DNA of 27,579 nucleotides from positions 1 to 27,579 of IMG/VR virus record IMGVR_UViG_3300033146_001838; one strand, given 5' to 3'. Source of the stretch: a virus. The notes below the pieces were generated by a model. That model ran no database searches, was not told where the DNA came from, and saw only the letters and a list, made by a program, of their open reading frames with translations. Positions 1-27,483 of the stretch are shown here, in pieces (positions within the stretch are counted from its first letter, which is position 1; every line of letters starts with the position of its first letter). Made by a program: the position numbers and the translations under genes.

Positions 1-112
1 ACATCTCATTGAACGCTCACGGAGTACTCACTGAGTACTCTCTCTTAATTAAGTTAAGTTAAGTTTAATTAAGATTAGTTAAGAACTACATGGGCGAAGT
101 TGTTTTGTTTTG
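1..112. repeat. 112-bp direct repeat, copy 1, with TTAAG iterations
   Basis: This block recurs base for base at 24044-24155. It contains two copies of the 8-bp palindrome GAGTACTC (about 22-29 and 33-40, 11 bp apart, one helical turn), followed by an AT-rich run of TTAAG/TTAATTAAG units (about 45-84). Iterated sites beside an AT-rich stretch resemble a replication origin or a multi-site operator, but the role is inferred. The window begins exactly inside this repeat, so its true left edge is unknown. Confidence 0.9.
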
Positions 113-114
113 CT

Positions 115-330
115 TATCTCTTTGCTCAAATTACCCCCGTCATGGTGTCACAAGCAGTCACAAGTTGGTTCCCAGTGAAACCTATACAATCTACCCTATC
201 CCCTAAGAAAGTTCCTCACAGGCTTTCTCAGGGGATTTTGTTTTAATCCTGAAACTCCCCCTTGACACTATATATACCATGTGCTAGAATAGGGTACATT
301 CAAAAACAAACCAAGTTATAGGAGACGACA
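115..330 (+). promoter_or_regulatory. Terminator-promoter module A
   Basis: This is a regulatory block of about 216 bp, repeated almost identically at 2846-3063 (B) and with changes at 10271-10496 (C), with its promoter half also at 20865-20964 (D). In order it holds a tandem GTCACAAG site (147-154 and 157-164, 10-bp period), the string AACCTATACAATCTACCCT, a terminator hairpin (200-244) and a promoter. The promoter has TTGACA at 262-267, a 17-bp spacer, TG at the extended -10 position and TAGAAT at 285-290. A conserved leader with the Shine-Dalgarno sequence AGGAG leads into the gene at 331. The layout stops upstream transcription and restarts it. Confidence 0.88.
200..244 (+). terminator. 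Terminator in module A
   Basis: CCCCTAAGAAAG (200-211) pairs with CTTTCTCAGGGG (223-234) with one A-C mismatch, around an 11-nt loop, and is followed by ATTTTGTTTT. In module C the stem bases differ but still pair (G-T wobble), which supports selection on the structure. Confidence 0.85.
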
Positions 331-732
331 ATGGAGATGTGCAAAGAACTTTCAGAGGCAGTTGAAGAAAAGAGTATTGGTGTAGATAAAGATGGCGAAT
401 TTTATACTATTACACTATCAAAACAAGCCCAATCCTACAACGATGAAGATGAATACGTTTGCCTTACACTGAAATTTTGCCCGTTTTGTGGAAGCGATCT
501 AACCCCGCGAAAAGCTGATTACAAAACACAATTAAGCACATTGCTTTTGATGCTTATTCGAAAGCAAGATCAGATTACTCATATCAACGAAAAAGGAACA
601 GCATTTAAGTGTGCAACTAGCAAACATATTTTAGAGAGAAATCAAATTATGGACGAGATAGAAAAGTTGTTTGCAAAGGTCTCTCCCCCTCATCTAGTGT
701 GTAACGATCAAGCTGATTTCAGAGAGAAATAA
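331..732 (+). CDS. Small phage protein with CPFCG zinc-binding motif
   Basis: This is a 133-residue protein of unknown function, the first gene behind promoter module A. Two cysteine pairs are visible: a lone Cys near the N-terminus and a CPFCG knuckle around residues 50-54, suggesting a single zinc ribbon. The C-terminal half is helical and charged, which fits a small regulatory or adaptor protein. The start is set by the conserved leader (AGGAG about 9 nt upstream of ATG 331). An internal ATG two codons later is possible. No family was recognised. Confidence 0.72.
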   Translation: MEMCKELSEAVEEKSIGVDKDGEFYTITLSKQAQSYNDEDEYVCLTLKFCPFCGSDLTPRKADYKTQLSTLLLMLIRKQDQITHINEKGTAFKCATSKHILERNQIMDEIEKLFAKVSPPHLVCNDQADFREK

Positions 733-2606: not shown

Positions 2607-2845
2607 TTGGGTTGGAGATTTAAAAAAAATTATATTTGTGAGTTCCTCAGCCGTAGAGAACGTGGTTACTCGAAAAACAGGCAGATGGTTCGATGAGGAT
2701 AGAACGGACTGCCCGCGCTATTATTTTGGATTTATTTAGGTGGGTAAAAATAGAATTAGGTATCATTGTCTCCGAGGGGGTAGTCATAGATACATTTTTT
2801 GAATGTAGAAAATCGGCGGGTGGTTCTGCCGATTTTCGTTTTAAG
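2607..2845. other. Non-coding gap with a second terminator
   Basis: I see no convincing gene here. A 72-codon open frame (2693-2911) runs through the terminator at 2809-2843 and into repeat module B and has no ribosome site, so I do not accept it. The only clear element is the hairpin AAAATCGGC/GCCGATTTT near the right end. Confidence 0.5.
2809..2843 (+). terminator. Terminator upstream of module B
   Basis: AAAATCGGC (2809-2817) pairs perfectly with GCCGATTTT (2828-2836), followed by CGTTTTAA. It sits directly before module B, which carries its own terminator, so two terminators in tandem precede the promoter. Confidence 0.75.
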
Positions 2846-3063
2846 TATCTCTTTGTTCCAAAATTACCCCCGTCATGGTGTCAAAAGCAGTCACAAGTTG
2901 GTTCCCAGTGAAACCTATACAATCTATCCTATCCCCTAAGAAAGTTCCTCACAGGCTTTCTCAGGGGATTTTGTTTTAATCCTGAAACTCCCTCTTGACA
3001 CTATATATACCATGTGCTAGAATAGGGTACATTCAAAAACAAACCAAGTTATAGGAGACGACA
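2846..3063 (+). promoter_or_regulatory. Terminator-promoter module B
   Basis: This is a near-identical copy of module A. The tandem site is GTCAAAAG (2880-2887) plus GTCACAAG (2890-2897). The terminator stem is 2933-2944/2956-2967 with a T-rich tail to 2977. The promoter has TTGACA at 2995-3000, a 17-bp spacer and TAGAAT at 3018-3023, with the same 5' leader and AGGAGACGACA before the ATG at 3064. One half of the tandem site carries a C-to-A change relative to copy A. Confidence 0.88.
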
Positions 3064-3330
3064 ATGGATAAAGAAATTCAAGAAGAAATCAAGAAAGAAT
3101 ATGACGAGAAATTAGAAATGTGCGCTACTATGAAGCGATTTGGTGGGTCATTTGTTCAAAGTTTAGCCGAGTGTTTTATCAGAGCGGATCAAGAAAATCT
3201 AAAAAAACTCTATGTTGCGTTCCCTAATGAGGTTGCGCTTTATAGTAATTGGCATTGCCAAAATGATAAATTTCATGATGCCCCCGCCAAAATTCGACAC
3301 GATAGAATAGTTGATAAACGTTTCGGATAA
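3064..3330 (+). CDS. Small phage protein of unknown function
   Basis: This 88-residue charged protein is expressed from module B. The N-terminal 20 residues form an EK-rich helix. The middle (FGGSFVQSLAECF.RADQENLKKLYVAFP) resembles small phage proteins I recall from Gram-positive phages, without an assigned role. The start is fixed by the conserved leader. It is followed by a large structured inverted-repeat element rather than a close neighbour. Confidence 0.75.
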   Translation: MDKEIQEEIKKEYDEKLEMCATMKRFGGSFVQSLAECFIRADQENLKKLYVAFPNEVALYSNWHCQNDKFHDAPAKIRHDRIVDKRFG

Positions 3331-3344
3331 TAGAATCATTGCTC

Positions 3345-3438
3345 CCTTCCACTTGACCGCGTACCGTATAGGGTTAGGCTACCCTGCCGGCGGCGAAGAA
3401 AGAGAATCCCTAGGTCTCTTACGCGGTCAAGTGGAAGG
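3345..3438. repeat. 94-nt Y-shaped inverted-repeat element
   Basis: A perfect 19-bp inverted repeat (CCTTCCACTTGACCGCGTA at 3345-3363; complement at 3420-3438) encloses 56 nt that can fold into two further hairpins (AGGGT/ACCCT at 3370-3385 and AGAGA/TCTCT at 3401-3419). A three-way junction results. TTTTCTT follows the right arm at 3442. It fills nearly the whole gap between two genes. It could be a structured RNA, a terminator or a miniature mobile element. Confidence 0.8.
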
Positions 3439-3458
3439 AAGTTTTCTTGGAGAATAAA

Positions 3459-10259: not shown

Positions 10260-10270
10260 TCCTATTACTC

Positions 10271-10496
10271 CAAAATCACCCCCGTCACGGTGTCACAAGC
10301 AGTCACAAGTTGACCACCGGCAAAACCTATACAATCTACCCTATCCCCTGAGAAAGCCCCTTACAGGCTTTTTCAGGGGATTTTATTTTAATCTCCGGTA
10401 CCTGAAAATTCCTCAAAATTCCCCCTTGACACTGTATATACCATGTGCTAGAATGGGGTACATTCAAAAACAAACCAAGTTACGAGGAGGCATAGC
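10271..10496 (+). promoter_or_regulatory. Terminator-promoter module C
   Basis: This is a diverged copy of modules A and B. The tandem GTCACAAG sites are at 10292-10299 and 10302-10309, with AACCTATACAATCTACCCT following. The terminator stem is CCCCTGAGAAAG (10345-10356)/CTTTTTCAGGGG (10368-10379) with tail ATTTTATTTTA. The promoter has TTGACA 10426-10431, a 17-bp spacer and TAGAAT 10449-10454. GTATATAC (10434-10441) lies between -35 and -10. The leader ends in GAGGAGG ahead of radC. Confidence 0.88.
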
Positions 10497-11123
10497 ATGT
10501 TGAGAAGTTTTACGAACAGTTCAGACGTTGAATTATTAGGGGCGGTGATTGGGGGAAATGAGCAGATACAGATTGCCACAAGTTTGATTGAAACATTCGG
10601 GGGAAATCTGAAAGGGGTTTATCATGCAAGTATAAGCGAATTGAAAGCACAATATGGTTTAGGACAAGTAGGTGCCAATAGAATTAAGGCGGCGTTATTT
10701 CTTGCACCTCATCTTTATAGTCCCAGTGAAGATGATACGTATATTGTAGATAGTCCAGATTCTGTTGTTCGATATATTGAGAGAGAAATGTCTCTCTTTG
10801 AACAAGAACACCTTTACGTTCTTTTATTAAATACAAGAAATAAAATTATTGGTAAGGTGGACTTGTATACAGGAACGCTTAACTCCTCCCGTGTACGAAT
10901 TGCGGAGATTTTCAGACCTGCGATAAAAGCCAATGCAGCGGCGATTATTGTTGCTCATAATCATCCTTCTGGAAATGCTAGCCCAAGTCCAGATGATCTT
11001 TCTTTGACGAGGGATATTGTTACATTAGGAAAGATGTTAGAAATTGAGTTGTTAGATCATTTGGTAATTGGTGGTGTTGGAAATTATGTTTCGATAAAAT
11101 CACAACGAAGGATTACGTTCTAA
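10497..11123 (+). CDS. radC: RadC-family JAMM metalloprotein
   Basis: This 208-residue protein has the full RadC layout: an N-terminal helix-hairpin-helix (VYHASISELKAQYGLGQVGANRIKAA, ~41-66) and a JAMM/MPN domain with Glu104, HNHPSG at 154-159 and Asp167 (HxHx10D zinc site). RadC-like proteins are common on phages, plasmids and islands; despite the name a repair function is not established. It is the first gene under module C, with strong GAGGAGG spacing, so it should be well expressed. Confidence 0.93.
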   Translation: MLRSFTNSSDVELLGAVIGGNEQIQIATSLIETFGGNLKGVYHASISELKAQYGLGQVGANRIKAALFLAPHLYSPSEDDTYIVDSPDSVVRYIEREMSLFEQEHLYVLLLNTRNKIIGKVDLYTGTLNSSRVRIAEIFRPAIKANAAAIIVAHNHPSGNASPSPDDLSLTRDIVTLGKMLEIELLDHLVIGGVGNYVSIKSQRRITF

Positions 11124-19169: not shown

Positions 19170-19721
19170 ATGCCTGTTGACGATATATTTTGGAATGAAG
19201 AAAGTCAAAAACTCTACGAAATACTGTTTCCGCTTATTTCCTCCGCGTCTTTAAGCGGGGCGAGAAATGCTTACGATGCTCTTGGCGGTGTTGCTGAATT
19301 AGGTGTAGCTTGGGATGTAGTAAATGACGATGTGATAAAGTGGGCAACCGCTCATACAATTGAGGTTGTTGCACAAGTTACAAAAACTAGCATGGCGGCG
19401 TTTGTGGAACACTTTGATAGTTGGCTTTTGTCCGGTGAGACAATGGATTCGTTGATCGAATTGCTCACTCCGTATTATGGTGTTGTACGCGCGGAAATGA
19501 TAGCGGTTACTGAAACAACTCGCGCTTTTGCGTTGGGCAATTTAGAGGCGTGGAAAAGTTCTGGTGTGGTATCTGGATGGAAATGGCGCACAGCGATGGA
19601 TGATATAGTATGTCCGATTTGTACAGAGAAAGAAAGAAATAATCCGTATGAATTTGGTGATGAAACCCCGCCTGCTCATGTCCGTTGCAGATGTAGTATG
19701 TCTCCGGTAATGAAAAAGTAA
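19170..19721 (+). CDS. MuF-like minor head protein
   Basis: This 183-residue protein has the Mu F/SPP1 gp7 C-terminal signature TETTRAFALGNLEAWKSSGVVSGWKWRTAMDD followed by CPICTEK...PPAHVRCRCSM. It is shorter than typical full MuF proteins (about 250-400 residues) but includes the conserved domain, and starts 3 nt after portal. Minor head proteins of this class enter with the portal and help head assembly. AAGGAG 5 nt before the ATG. Confidence 0.88.
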   Translation: MPVDDIFWNEESQKLYEILFPLISSASLSGARNAYDALGGVAELGVAWDVVNDDVIKWATAHTIEVVAQVTKTSMAAFVEHFDSWLLSGETMDSLIELLTPYYGVVRAEMIAVTETTRAFALGNLEAWKSSGVVSGWKWRTAMDDIVCPICTEKERNNPYEFGDETPPAHVRCRCSMSPVMKK

Positions 19722-19742
19722 TCAAATAACGCTCAAAATACA

Positions 19743-19806
19743 GTCGTCATCGTGTCACAAGTAGTCACAACGATTATACGAGCGTAACCTATACAATCTA
19801 CCCTAT
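19743..19806. repeat. Truncated module element E (GTCACAAG tandem)
   Basis: Right after the minor head gene is a copy of only the upstream part of the repeat modules: CGTCATCGTGTCACAAG, tandem sites GTCACAAG (19754-19761) and GTCACAAC (19764-19771), and ACCTATACAATCTACCCTAT (19787-19806). The terminator and promoter halves are absent; an open frame begins instead. Confidence 0.85.
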
Positions 19807-19836
19807 TTGTTCTATACAAAGCCCTACGGCGTTCTT

Positions 19837-20202
19837 ATGCTCAAAAAGTTTCTTAATTTCCCGTCCATCAGCGAAGTGGAAGGCGTTACACCCTCTGCTT
19901 CTCTTGGCGTTGGTTATCAAGCGCAGATTGTCGCAGTCAACAAGCGAACAGATCGAGAAATTACAAGACTTGTCCGGCGTGCCTTGCCCTTGGATAGAGA
20001 AGTCCCCGCAGGAACATTCAAACTCCGTTATATTCTTGGTGAGGGATATCCTCATGTGTCTATTGACGATGAGAGTGTGCTTCGGTTATTTGCGTCTCCG
20101 TTTCTGAATATGCGGGATCTCATCGCCTTGGAATGGGCTAAAGAATTGGACTTAAACAAGTTGCCTAAGTATCGCGTGGTGTTGGAGAAAATAACAGAAT
20201 GA
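19837..20202 (+). CDS. Hypothetical protein in the head region
   Basis: This 121-residue basic protein (ISEVEGVTPSASLGVG...RLVRRALPLDREVPAGTFKLRYILGEGYPHVSIDDESVLRLFASPF) has no recognised family. Neither ATG 19837 nor the in-frame TTG at 19807 has a Shine-Dalgarno sequence, and the frame begins right at truncated element E. It may therefore be a displaced gene without its normal start. It overlaps the next gene by ATGA, as expected for a head-neck operon member. Confidence 0.6.
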   Translation: MLKKFLNFPSISEVEGVTPSASLGVGYQAQIVAVNKRTDREITRLVRRALPLDREVPAGTFKLRYILGEGYPHVSIDDESVLRLFASPFLNMRDLIALEWAKELDLNKLPKYRVVLEKITE

Positions 20203-20818: not shown

Positions 20819-20837
20819 ATTGTTTGTTGAGTTTACG

Positions 20838-20870
20838 AAATCGCTGGTTTATACTGGCGATTTTGTTTTA
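20838..20870 (+). terminator. Terminator upstream of module D promoter
   Basis: AAATCGC (20838-20844) pairs with GCGATTT (20857-20863) and is followed by TGTTTTA. This hairpin replaces the CCCCT...AGGGG one of modules A-C while the flanking GTTTTAATC is kept, suggesting interchangeable terminator parts. Confidence 0.7.
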
Positions 20871-20964
20871 ATCTCCGATCCCTGAAACTCCCTCTTGACA
20901 CTATATATACCATGTGCTAGAATAGGGTACATTCAAAAACAAACCAAGTTACGAGGAGACAGTA
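20865..20964 (+). promoter_or_regulatory. Promoter half-module D
   Basis: The promoter and leader part is as in modules A and B: TTGACA 20895-20900, 17-bp spacer, TAGAAT 20918-20923, then AGGGTACATTCAAAAACAAA and GAGGAG before the ATG at 20965. The GTCACAAG tandem is not here; a lone copy of it (element E) sits about 1.1 kb upstream. Confidence 0.85.
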
Positions 20965-21195
20965 ATGGATAACCAACAGGTAGAAAAAGAATTAGAAACC
21001 GCGAAAAAAAATCTTGTAGAATTAAAAAAATCACTTGCTCTTTATGCTTCTCGGGTTTCTGTTACTCAAAGTAACAGAGATTATGATGCGTATAAAGTAG
21101 CGTTAGCGTATAAGCAGATAGCATCGGCAAAGGTTGATGCTGTTTCGTTAGAAATTGAATTGCTTGAAGACCTTATTTCGCATTTCGGAAAGTAA
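20965..21195 (+). CDS. Small coiled-coil protein
   Basis: This 76-residue protein is almost entirely helical (VEKELETAKKNLVELKKSLALYASRV...SAKVDAVSLEIELLEDLISHFGK) with heptad-like leucines, consistent with an antiparallel coiled coil. Expressed from half-module D with a strong ribosome site. It is the last gene before the cassette array. Function unknown. Confidence 0.72.
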   Translation: MDNQQVEKELETAKKNLVELKKSLALYASRVSVTQSNRDYDAYKVALAYKQIASAKVDAVSLEIELLEDLISHFGK

Positions 21196-21605: not shown

Positions 21606-22170
21606 ATCTAAATTTAGTTCGAAGGAGAAAATATGTACGATAGCACAAAAGATACAAGCGACCACAAGAAAGCGGTTAAACACTTTATGTCCGTCGCAAT
21701 TCTCGAGCTGACACAAAGAGCAATCGTCCACGATGCAAGCAAATTAGAGTCACCAGAAAAAGAAATGTTTGATAAATACACTCCGTTGCTAAAAGACACA
21801 ACTTACGGCAGCGATGAGTATAAAAAATATCTCTCTGAAATGGGCGTTGCGCTGAAACATCACTACGAAAACAATACTCACCATCCAGAACATTTTGAAA
21901 ATGGTATTGCTGGCATGTCGCTATTAGATTTACTAGAAATGTTTTGCGATTGGCAAGCAGCATCTTTGCGCCACGCAGACGGCGACATTGTAGAGAGCAT
22001 AGAAATAAACCGCAAAAGATTCGGCATGTCTGACCAACTCCATCGTATCTTTTTGAATACATTAAAAGAGTTGTGGGGCAATGCCTAACATTAAATGCAC
22101 TTGACCTATGGCGGGCGCAGGCGTTTTTAGTCCGTAAATTATAACCGCCATAGGCAAGTGATTATCACCG
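21600..22170 (+). mobile_element. Integron-type gene cassette 2
   Basis: Runs from TTAGGC after the G at 21599 to the G at 22170. It holds the DUF5662 gene and the attC site 22083-22176. The gene's stop codon overlaps the R'' box (GCCTAAC), a compact layout usual in cassettes. Confidence 0.75.
21633..22088 (+). CDS. DUF5662-like protein
   Basis: This 151-residue protein has the DUF5662 signature: IVHDASKLESPEKEMFDKYTP, ALKHHYENNTHHPEHFENGI and MSLLDLLEMFCDWQAASLRH. The conserved His/Asp residues suggest an HD-like metal-dependent fold. The family is found in phages and integron cassettes; its substrate is not known to me. GAAGGAG sits 6 nt before the ATG. The reading frame ends in GGCAATGCCTAA, merging into attC. 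Confidence 0.82.
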   Translation: MYDSTKDTSDHKKAVKHFMSVAILELTQRAIVHDASKLESPEKEMFDKYTPLLKDTTYGSDEYKKYLSEMGVALKHHYENNTHHPEHFENGIAGMSLLDLLEMFCDWQAASLRHADGDIVESIEINRKRFGMSDQLHRIFLNTLKELWGNA

Positions 22171-22202: not shown

Positions 22203-22278
22203 ATTGGTCTACCAATCCCTTGACTTTGTGCGTACAATCTGCTATAATGTAGGTAGATGAGTGAGACAAACTCACTCA
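22203..22278 (+). promoter_or_regulatory. Cassette 3 promoter with operator-like site and 5' hairpin
   Basis: TTGACT (22220-22225), 17-bp spacer, TG-C then TATAAT (22243-22248): a near-consensus extended -10 promoter. The inverted repeat ATTGGT-CT-ACCAAT (22203-22216) abuts the -35, a possible operator. The transcript would start with the hairpin TGAGTGAG-ACAAA-CTCACTCA (22258-22278), which could protect its 5' end. CAGGAG follows before ATG 22298. Confidence 0.8.
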
Positions 22279-24043: not shown

Positions 24044-24176
24044 ACATCTCATTGAACGCTCACGGAGTACTCACTGAGTACTCTCTCTTAATTAAGTTAA
24101 GTTAAGTTTAATTAAGATTAGTTAAGAACTACATGGGCGAAGTTGTTTTGTTTTGTAAGAAAGTTCCTCACAGGCT
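24044..24176. repeat. 112-bp direct repeat, copy 2, with fused module fragment
   Basis: 24044-24155 is identical to 1-112. It is then joined directly to TAAGAAAGTTCCTCACAGGCT, which at the window start lies at 204-224. So bases 113-203 of the copy-1 arrangement are missing here, and the promoter half is gone too. This looks like a deletion derivative of the whole leader. Confidence 0.9.
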
Positions 24177-25816: not shown

Positions 25817-25825
25817 GGATTCCCC

Positions 25826-26293
25826 ATGAAACCTATACAATCTACTCTGAAATTGATTTACGATGCGCTACGCCCGTCCTACGAAGGACAGCCGAAGAAA
25901 ATTGTTTATGAAGAAATAGCGCGGCGTGTTAACGATCTTGCCGGAAAGACTTGGACGTGGAGATATATACAGAGCGTTTTGTCCGGTACAGTTTCTCCAA
26001 AGGAGGAGTTTGTTCGTGTCGTTACGGTGATAGCTGAAAGTTTACATGGCGAGGGGGTAATGGTTGGTACTGAGGATGTTGTTGTTCGTGCAAAGTTTGG
26101 TACCTTGCACAGTGGGGCTGTTGTTTTAGCCTCCAGTAAACCCTGTAAGAATCCATCGTGTACGGTTTATTTTGTCCCAAAGCAGAGCGGTCAAAAGTAT
26201 TGCTCGCAGGCTTGCCGTAAACATAATTGGTGGCTTCGTAAGCAAGTAAAGATGTCTAATATATTATTAGAGGAGAGTAAAGAAAATGTGTGA
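25826..26293 (+). CDS. Putative DNA-binding protein with C-terminal zinc ribbon
   Basis: This 155-residue protein has a helical N-terminus resembling a helix-turn-helix (KIVYEEIARRVNDLAGKTWTWRYIQSVLSGTVSPKEEFVRVV, ~24-64) and a C-terminal zinc ribbon (CKNPSCTVYFVP...QKYCSQACRKHNWW, ~117-146). Its first 20 nt (ATGAAACCTATACAATCTAC) reproduce the string found in repeat modules A, B, C and E. AAGGAT upstream. It may be a regulator that reads that string, though this is only suggested by the match. Confidence 0.72.
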   Translation: MKPIQSTLKLIYDALRPSYEGQPKKIVYEEIARRVNDLAGKTWTWRYIQSVLSGTVSPKEEFVRVVTVIAESLHGEGVMVGTEDVVVRAKFGTLHSGAVVLASSKPCKNPSCTVYFVPKQSGQKYCSQACRKHNWWLRKQVKMSNILLEESKENV

Positions 26294-26564
26294 AGAAAAT
26301 GATGATAGTTTTGCTAAGAAAATATGTGGTCTTTTTGATAGCATGATCAAAGCTCGTCCGGTGCCTGTTGAGGTAGTTTTCAACCCGCCGCATACGATTA
26401 TTAACTGGAGCGATGGAGACAAGACTATCGTCAAGGTACGCGAAGGCGAGAAATTTGACGAGCATGTTGGTTTCTTGGCTTGTGTTGCTAAAAAGTATTT
26501 TGGCGGTCACAATGCCTACAAGAAACTTATTGAAAATGCTGTTAGGCAAAATAAGGTCAAATAA
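26286..26564 (+). CDS. Small phage protein of a widespread family
   Basis: This 92-residue protein contains VEVVFNPPHTIINWSDGDKTIVKVREGEKFDEHVGFLACVAKKYFG. I recall this signature (NxPxTIxxWxDGxKTxVK...G..FD...G...AxAKK) from many Gram-positive phage genomes; no function is established. GAGGAGAG precedes the ATG, and it overlaps the preceding gene by 8 nt. Confidence 0.78.
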   Translation: MCEENDDSFAKKICGLFDSMIKARPVPVEVVFNPPHTIINWSDGDKTIVKVREGEKFDEHVGFLACVAKKYFGGHNAYKKLIENAVRQNKVK

Positions 26565-26565
26565 C

Positions 26566-27483
26566 ATGTCGACAACGATTGAGTGGGCTAGTAACCCGGA
26601 TGGAACACGAGGTGAGTCTTTGAACATGGTTTTTGGTTGTACAAAGAAATCAGCCGGATGTACAAACTGCTACGCTGAACTTATGGCAAAGCGTTTGAGG
26701 CATATTGGTAATAAGAATTATCAAACAGCAACCGATGATAAAGGTTGGACCGGAAAGGTAAGTTTTGACCCTAGTGTAGCCGAAAAAGTTTCTAAGTGGC
26801 GAAAGCCTCGGACAGTGTTTCTCAATTCAATGAGTGACACCTTCCACGAAGATTTAGACGATAGAGCTATTTTCAATATGCTTGGAATGATAGCAAAACA
26901 CCCAAAGCATACGTTCATTTTGGTAACGAAACGCGCAGAACGAATGAAAATTATGGTGAATCGCTATGTGAATGTTTATTGTCATGGGGATCCTCTTCAA
27001 AATATGTGGTTGTTAGTATCGGCTGAAAACCAAAAAACAGCCGATGAGCGCGTGTTGTTTTTGATAGCAACTAAAGCTATTGTCCGTGGGATCAGTGCAG
27101 AACCATTATTAGGGTTTATTAACTTTGGTTTTGATGGAATAGTGCCAAGTACAATATCAAGAGCATACAGACCCGTCTCTGATTTTATTGACTTTGTGAT
27201 CGCCGGCGGAGAAAGTGGCAACAACGCAAGATCGGTTAATCCAAACGCGTTTCGTAACATCAGGGACCAGTGCGTAGCAAGCGAAGTAAAGTTTTTCTTT
27301 AAACAGTGGGGAGCGTATGCCCCGCTTGGAGAAATCAGTGGTCTTGGAGAAAAAAACTTCAACTCTAGGCGCTATCATATTTTTGATAGTAATGAGAAAG
27401 TTTTTTACAACGGAAAGAAAAAGAACGGTCGCCTTCTTGATGGTAGAGAGTGGAACGAGAGACCAGAATTCGGATGTAGATAG
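26566..27483 (+). CDS. Phage Gp37/Gp68 family protein (DUF5131)
   Basis: This 305-residue protein has the DUF5131 signature: TIEWASN near the N-terminus, FGCTKKSAGCTNCYAE with Cys25, Cys32 and Cys35, VFLNSMSDTFHEDL, TFILVTKRAERM, SAENQKTADER, SAEPLLG, VIAGGESGNNARSVNP and VKFFFKQWGAY. These form a TIM-barrel with a radical-SAM-like cysteine cluster. The family is frequent in phages and integrative elements; its reaction is unknown to me. It starts 1 nt after the preceding stop. The longer upstream frame is a shadow. Confidence 0.92.
   Translation: MSTTIEWASNPDGTRGESLNMVFGCTKKSAGCTNCYAELMAKRLRHIGNKNYQTATDDKGWTGKVSFDPSVAEKVSKWRKPRTVFLNSMSDTFHEDLDDRAIFNMLGMIAKHPKHTFILVTKRAERMKIMVNRYVNVYCHGDPLQNMWLLVSAENQKTADERVLFLIATKAIVRGISAEPLLGFINFGFDGIVPSTISRAYRPVSDFIDFVIAGGESGNNARSVNPNAFRNIRDQCVASEVKFFFKQWGAYAPLGEISGLGEKNFNSRRYHIFDSNEKVFYNGKKKNGRLLDGREWNERPEFGCR

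Follow-up and report, generated by a model that had tools for sequence, protein, structure and literature searches.

Repeated intergenic cassettes

The repeats scattered over a 27,579-nt phage record are best read as duplicated intergenic stop-restart cassettes of the phage, accompanied by a separate two-part box as a cis-element, and a probability of about two in three is given to this reading. The stretch analysed (the window), an entire IMG/VR virus record, comes from an uncultured phage. Self-comparison of the window showed that an intergenic cassette of about 200 nt recurs before several unrelated genes. The parts, their order, the copy number, the divergence pattern and the kept pairing are direct observations on the DNA. 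The stop-restart reading is preferred since the parts that were kept are the parts that would be needed, and copy D has changed its stem yet kept a terminator.

Three full copies (A, B and C) share the same order of two-part box, intrinsic-terminator hairpin, sigma-70 promoter with an extended -10 and leader with a Shine-Dalgarno site (Table 1). The order terminator, promoter, leader claimed for them in a preliminary description was confirmed by sequence, and its coordinates for the repeats were right to within about 15 nt. A and B are 96-97% identical over 219-235 nt, and A and C 81-82%, the terminator and promoter of C being set further apart by additional bases. The partial copies that had been proposed at 20865-20964, 19743-19806 and 24156-24176 are also real. 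The first, D (20856-20969), holds promoter and leader, with 87% identity over tail, promoter and leader (self-comparison match 20856-20972, 83-88%); its hairpin is unrelated to that of A and the box is absent. The second, E (19731-19806, 79% identity), is box only, and the third is an exact 21-nt match to a hairpin arm and nothing else. A search of the rest of the genome returned these listed copies and a seventh, partial one that had been missed, F (25820-25848, 90% identity, E-value = 5e-6), which corresponds to the right half of the box only. No single cassette definition covers all copies, D being without the box and E being the box alone.

The modules are co-directional, lie between stop and start codons and nearly fill the intergenic gaps: A and B reach as far as the start codon of the following gene, and C begins 10 nt past a stop codon and finishes at the next start. 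The copies are not open in one shared frame and are non-coding.

Table 1. Coordinates of the repeat copies and related features in the window (dG in kcal/mol)
Feature	Position	Strand	Description
Module A, full	103-335	+	
Module B, full	2834-3068	+	
Module C, full	10269-10496	+	self-comparison match 10269-10482
A box	136-199	+	CGTCATGGTGTCACAAGCAGTCACAA, 15-nt spacer, AACCTATACAATCTACCCTAT
B box	2869-2932	+	first repeat GTCAAAAG
C box	10281-10344	+	
E box	19743-19806	+	between head gene 19170-19721 and ORF 19807-20202; terminator and promoter absent
F, box right block	25820-25848	+	over start codon of gene 25826-26293
A terminator	198-246	+	hairpin and T-run, dG -18.8
B terminator	2931-2979	+	hairpin identical to A, dG -18.8
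C terminator	10343-10391	+	16-bp stem, dG -27.1
D terminator	20835-20871	+	unrelated 13-bp stem, same TTTTGTTTTAAT tail, dG -15.8
Extra terminator-like hairpin	2808-2837	+	unrelated, directly upstream of B, dG -19.5
Hairpin-arm fragment	24156-24176	+	TAAGAAAGTTCCTCACAGGCT, directly 3' of 112-nt repeat
A promoter	262-290	+	TTGACA-N17-TAGAAT, TG before -10, 11/12
A leader (predicted)	297-330	+	AGGAG; gene 331-732 next
B promoter and leader	2995-3063	+	promoter 2995-3023; gene 3064-3330 next
C promoter and leader	10426-10496	+	promoter 10426-10454; radC-like gene 10497-11123 next
D promoter and leader	20895-20964	+	promoter 20895-20923; gene 20965-21195 next
Gene 25826	25826-26293	+	predicted HTH-like N-terminus; CGNR/NinG-like zinc finger in C-terminal half, sub-threshold

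Conservation is seen here among paralogues only and comes partly from recent duplication (A-B, B-D). It is very improbable that the copies are just recent duplications or assembly artefacts without regulatory importance. An exact 112-nt repeat opens the contig (1-112) and recurs at 24044-24155, the exact stretches shared between modules (75 nt for A-B, 71 nt for B-D) are of lengths where short-k assembly can misjoin, and a capsid or tail gene was not recognised among the scanned proteins. Against these points, A, B, C, D and E are mutually different, their conservation is block-wise and selective, and their flanks differ. Since the copies differ, are non-coding and almost fill the intergenic gaps, the modules are not assembly duplicates, a possibility that the preliminary description had raised against itself. 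The 112-nt repeat, which holds a perfect 9+1+9 palindrome, GAGTACTCAcTGAGTACTC, may be an assembly-graph branch overlap or a real duplication.

The exact A-B and B-D stretches are also long enough for recombination, in agreement with the proposal that the modules offer homology. Gene swapping by homology at these sites would therefore be possible, and D, E and the fragment at 24156-24176 look like products of rearrangement.

Predicted terminators

Each of the hairpins of A-D folds better than 200 of 200 shuffled sequences, and the tail that follows the hairpin in the modules is TTTTGTTTT. Relative to A, the stem of C carries A->G, T->C, T->C and C->T changes, plus one change in the loop. It had been claimed that this stem changed with pairing kept; pairing is indeed kept or improved, but no two-sided compensatory change is present. 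Judged from sequence, D is better evidence than C for a kept terminator, having a wholly different stem with the same kind of T-run. Transcripts from the upstream gene would end at the hairpin and T-run, and insulation of gene blocks would follow if the hairpins terminate.

A strong unrelated hairpin (22098-22160, -29.7 kcal/mol) is followed by a promoter at 22220-22248 (TTGACT-N17-TATAAT with TG), with no homology to the modules. Since the terminator-promoter order also occurs there without homology, it is a general habit of this genome, and the special feature is the repeated cassette, not the order itself. Between genes 3064 and 3459, a 22-nt inverted repeat encloses a branched fold (3342-3441; -54.8 kcal/mol, z -5.2). 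This fold has no Rfam match and is possibly a structured RNA or a terminator.

Predicted promoters and leaders

The pattern TTGACA-N14-TGnTAnAAT occurs exactly four times in the window, always in a module. Across A-D, 28-29 of the 29 promoter positions are kept, and all four promoters score 11/12 against the sigma-70 consensus, with sigma-70 rules assumed that may not be those of the host. The start of the leader is equally well kept (27-28/28). Measured from the predicted start to the ATG, the leaders are 34-36 nt long, unstructured and nearly invariant in their first part, and contain AGGAG. They had been described as near-identical up to the start codon, which holds for A and B, identical to the ATG, but not for C and D, which diverge from AAGTTA onward. 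That unrelated genes are preceded by the same expression signal is supported by the 11/12 promoter, the kept start region and the AGGAG leader in three to four diverged copies.

In the stop-restart reading, host RNA polymerase would restart about 60 nt downstream of the stop, from a strong sigma-70 promoter that has an extended -10, and the resulting leader would be short, unstructured and equipped with a Shine-Dalgarno site. Genes 331, 3064, 10497 (RadC) and 20965 would then share one signal, presumably constitutive or early in timing.

The upstream box

The box consists of CGTCATnGTGTCACAAGnAGTCACAA, 15 nt and AACCTATACAATCTACCCTAT. It is 64 nt long, bipartite and asymmetric, with four intergenic copies, all on the + strand. 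AACCTATACAATCTA is present in five exact copies, against a shuffled expectation of 0.07 at up to 2 mismatches, and the tandem GTCACAA in four, against 0.64 at up to 3 mismatches. The tandem repeat had been reported as such and is present, but it is not identical in B, where the first repeat differs (Table 1).

Conservation within the box is uneven. Between E and A, 45/47 block bases are kept versus 5/15 spacer bases (p = 1.5e-6, Fisher), and between C and A, 46/47 versus 8/15 (p = 9e-5). Since the blocks are kept while the spacer drifts in C and E, a constraint separate from that on the other parts acts on the blocks and on the distance between them. The box is a cis-element in its own right, separable from the terminator-promoter pair, since E has the box without the pair and D the pair without the box. 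The single cassette of the preliminary description consequently stands as to the order in A-C, but not as to the box being a part of it.

Several candidate features of the box were discarded. A leader peptide was rejected, as the 34-codon frame shared by A and B is broken by early stops in C and E. The 8 nt over which the end of the box (TACCCTAT) can pair with the promoter start region (ATAGGGTA) were put down to chance. Outside this record, AACCTATACAATCTACC was found in 25 viral contigs, in unrelated contexts and with the remainder of the box missing, and these matches were also taken as chance.

Placed upstream of a terminator, the box would most likely be where a phage regulator that acts at the stop points binds. 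It is quite doubtful that such a regulator, perhaps the 25826 protein under autocontrol via F, switches the stop points between termination and read-through; if it did, a regulator at the box would provide one distributed stop/go control over several phage operons.

Alternatively, the box itself could be an activator-dependent promoter, with the tandem GTCACAA at about -47 and -37, TACAAT as the -10 and a start near 197, which in E would drive ORF 19807 and in A-C would be attenuated by the hairpin immediately after. The 10-bp direct repeats are in phase, TACAAT lies about 21 bp downstream, and spacing and orientation are the same in all four box copies. This is somewhat unlikely, however, given that a usable -35 is absent, the transcript in A-C would start at the terminator hairpin, and ORF 19807 in E is not preceded by a clear Shine-Dalgarno sequence.

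The box may also be the target of a phage DNA-binding protein which blocks elongation or modulates termination, as stoperators do, with the product of gene 25826, self-controlled through copy F, as the candidate binder. The asymmetric box sits in intergenic gaps, always co-directional with transcription, and F lies on the start of 25826. The N-terminal 75 residues of the 25826 protein are a confident helical bundle in structure prediction, and a weak zf-CGNR match falls below the cut-off. A fold search with the model gave no significant match: the best PDB hits were XRE-type regulators, and all matches had E above 1. Moreover, F is the right block only and differs from A mostly by synonymous changes, so it is perhaps merely a coding fragment, and four box sites are few compared with the more than twenty of L5-type phages (PMC9283540). 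This possibility is considered unlikely, although the structure model leaves the 25826 protein, which has a distant homologue in the relative L053 (5748-6182, 25%), as a possible self-controlling regulator of the box.

An antitermination signal in the nascent RNA (nut/put-like), with a modified polymerase passing the terminator, would agree with the location of the box just upstream of the terminators in A-C and within the head-gene run in E. It is decidedly improbable, since a conserved RNA structure is missing from the box (z values of +0.3 to -1.7 for A, C and E), Rfam gave no match anywhere in the window, and an antiterminator gene was not recognised.

Comparison with known systems

Judged from sequence, the closest known kind to these modules is that of the promoter-early stem-loops (PeSLs) of T4-type phages, whose original accounts are reportedly those of Arbiol (2010) and Comeau (2014). 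According to the cited sections, PeSLs are repeated intergenic cassettes of a strong host-type promoter and a stem-loop, and gene shuffling has been suggested to use them as regions of homology (PMC4503421, PMC3950731). The likeness includes several homologous intergenic copies in one genome, a strong sigma-70-like promoter per copy (by sequence, 11/12 plus TG in A-D) and a stem-loop, which in A-D has the predicted structure of a hairpin with T-run. Compared with PeSLs as described there, the present genome is not T4-type (its terminase is near those of AP1 and DC33 and its portal is PF04860), a conserved two-part upstream box is additional, and the density is low, with 4 promoters in 27.6 kb. 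The haloarchaeal virus HGTV-1 has a promoter and inverted-repeat motif before many genes, and its TATA-like plus inverted-repeat motifs were likened to PeSLs by the authors; its promoter is archaeal, however, and an upstream box is not described in the cited section (PMC3950731).

Other systems share single features only, as far as the cited texts describe them. The SAS/ESAS of cluster K mycobacteriophages are conserved and sit immediately upstream of many unrelated genes, half of the sites having an extra upstream element, but they are a 13-bp translation-start sequence with 17-bp inverted repeats, and a terminator-promoter pair is not described in the cited section (PMC3203893). The stoperators of cluster A mycobacteriophages, which by analogy could serve as a model for the box, are also asymmetric and lie in short gaps between genes, in the orientation of transcription; in contrast to the 64-nt bipartite box with four intergenic sites, they are 13-mers present more than twenty times, and a known repressor binds them (PMC9283540). 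In Campylobacter group II phages, homologous intergenic repeats split the genome into modules and are tied to rearrangement, but these are 1-2.9 kb arrays of 72-86-bp units, and the word "promoter" is never mentioned (PMC4546147).

Should the stop-restart reading hold, units of the PeSL type would not be confined to T4-type phages and haloviruses, and another phage lineage would have ready-made natural junctions at which genes could be exchanged; the box, conserved on its own, would then represent a novel type of terminator-linked regulatory site. Such repeats would also call for caution with metagenomic phage assemblies, which they can break or misjoin.

Distribution and genome setting

The related contigs, where the module had been suggested to be sought, gave no orthologous copy, and neither did viral contigs, named phages or bacterial genomes, all scanned with exact or near-exact patterns. 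Plasmids gave only weak 28-nt matches, and the module was absent from the relatives found via the terminase or the RDF-like protein. Absence elsewhere is weak evidence, since the scans used such patterns and the nearest records were perhaps omitted. The relatives L053 and L045 have repeated promoter-leader pairs of their own, at 16887-16921/19019-19048 and 4800-4862/8070-8131 in L053 and at 3.15/3.45 kb in L045. In the 16.9/19.0 kb pair, ACGATATATCGT-like palindromes lie between -35 and -10 and may be operators.

All genes taken as real in the window are on the + strand. The named products are an RDF-like Gp3 family protein, ParB, a replication initiator, a DnaC-like loader, RadC, RtcB, the large terminase, the portal (PF04860 family), a head morphogenesis protein, a Com-like zinc ribbon and DUF5131. 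The nearest named phages by terminase are Acidovorax phage AP1 (46%) and Limnohabitans phage DC33 (43%), and a terminase search of bacterial genomes for the host gave no match. Genes for a major capsid or tail protein were not recognised in the subset of ORFs scanned, and the record is probably a fragment of a phage genome.

In L053 (8507-10711), the DUF5131 gene is directly upstream of the homologues of gene 737 and of the RDF-like gene, so that the homologues of DUF5131, gene 737 and gene 1046 adjoin, whereas in the window the DUF5131 region (26413-27483) and 737-2047 sit at opposite ends. This arrangement suggests that in the real genome the two ends of the contig may lie close together.
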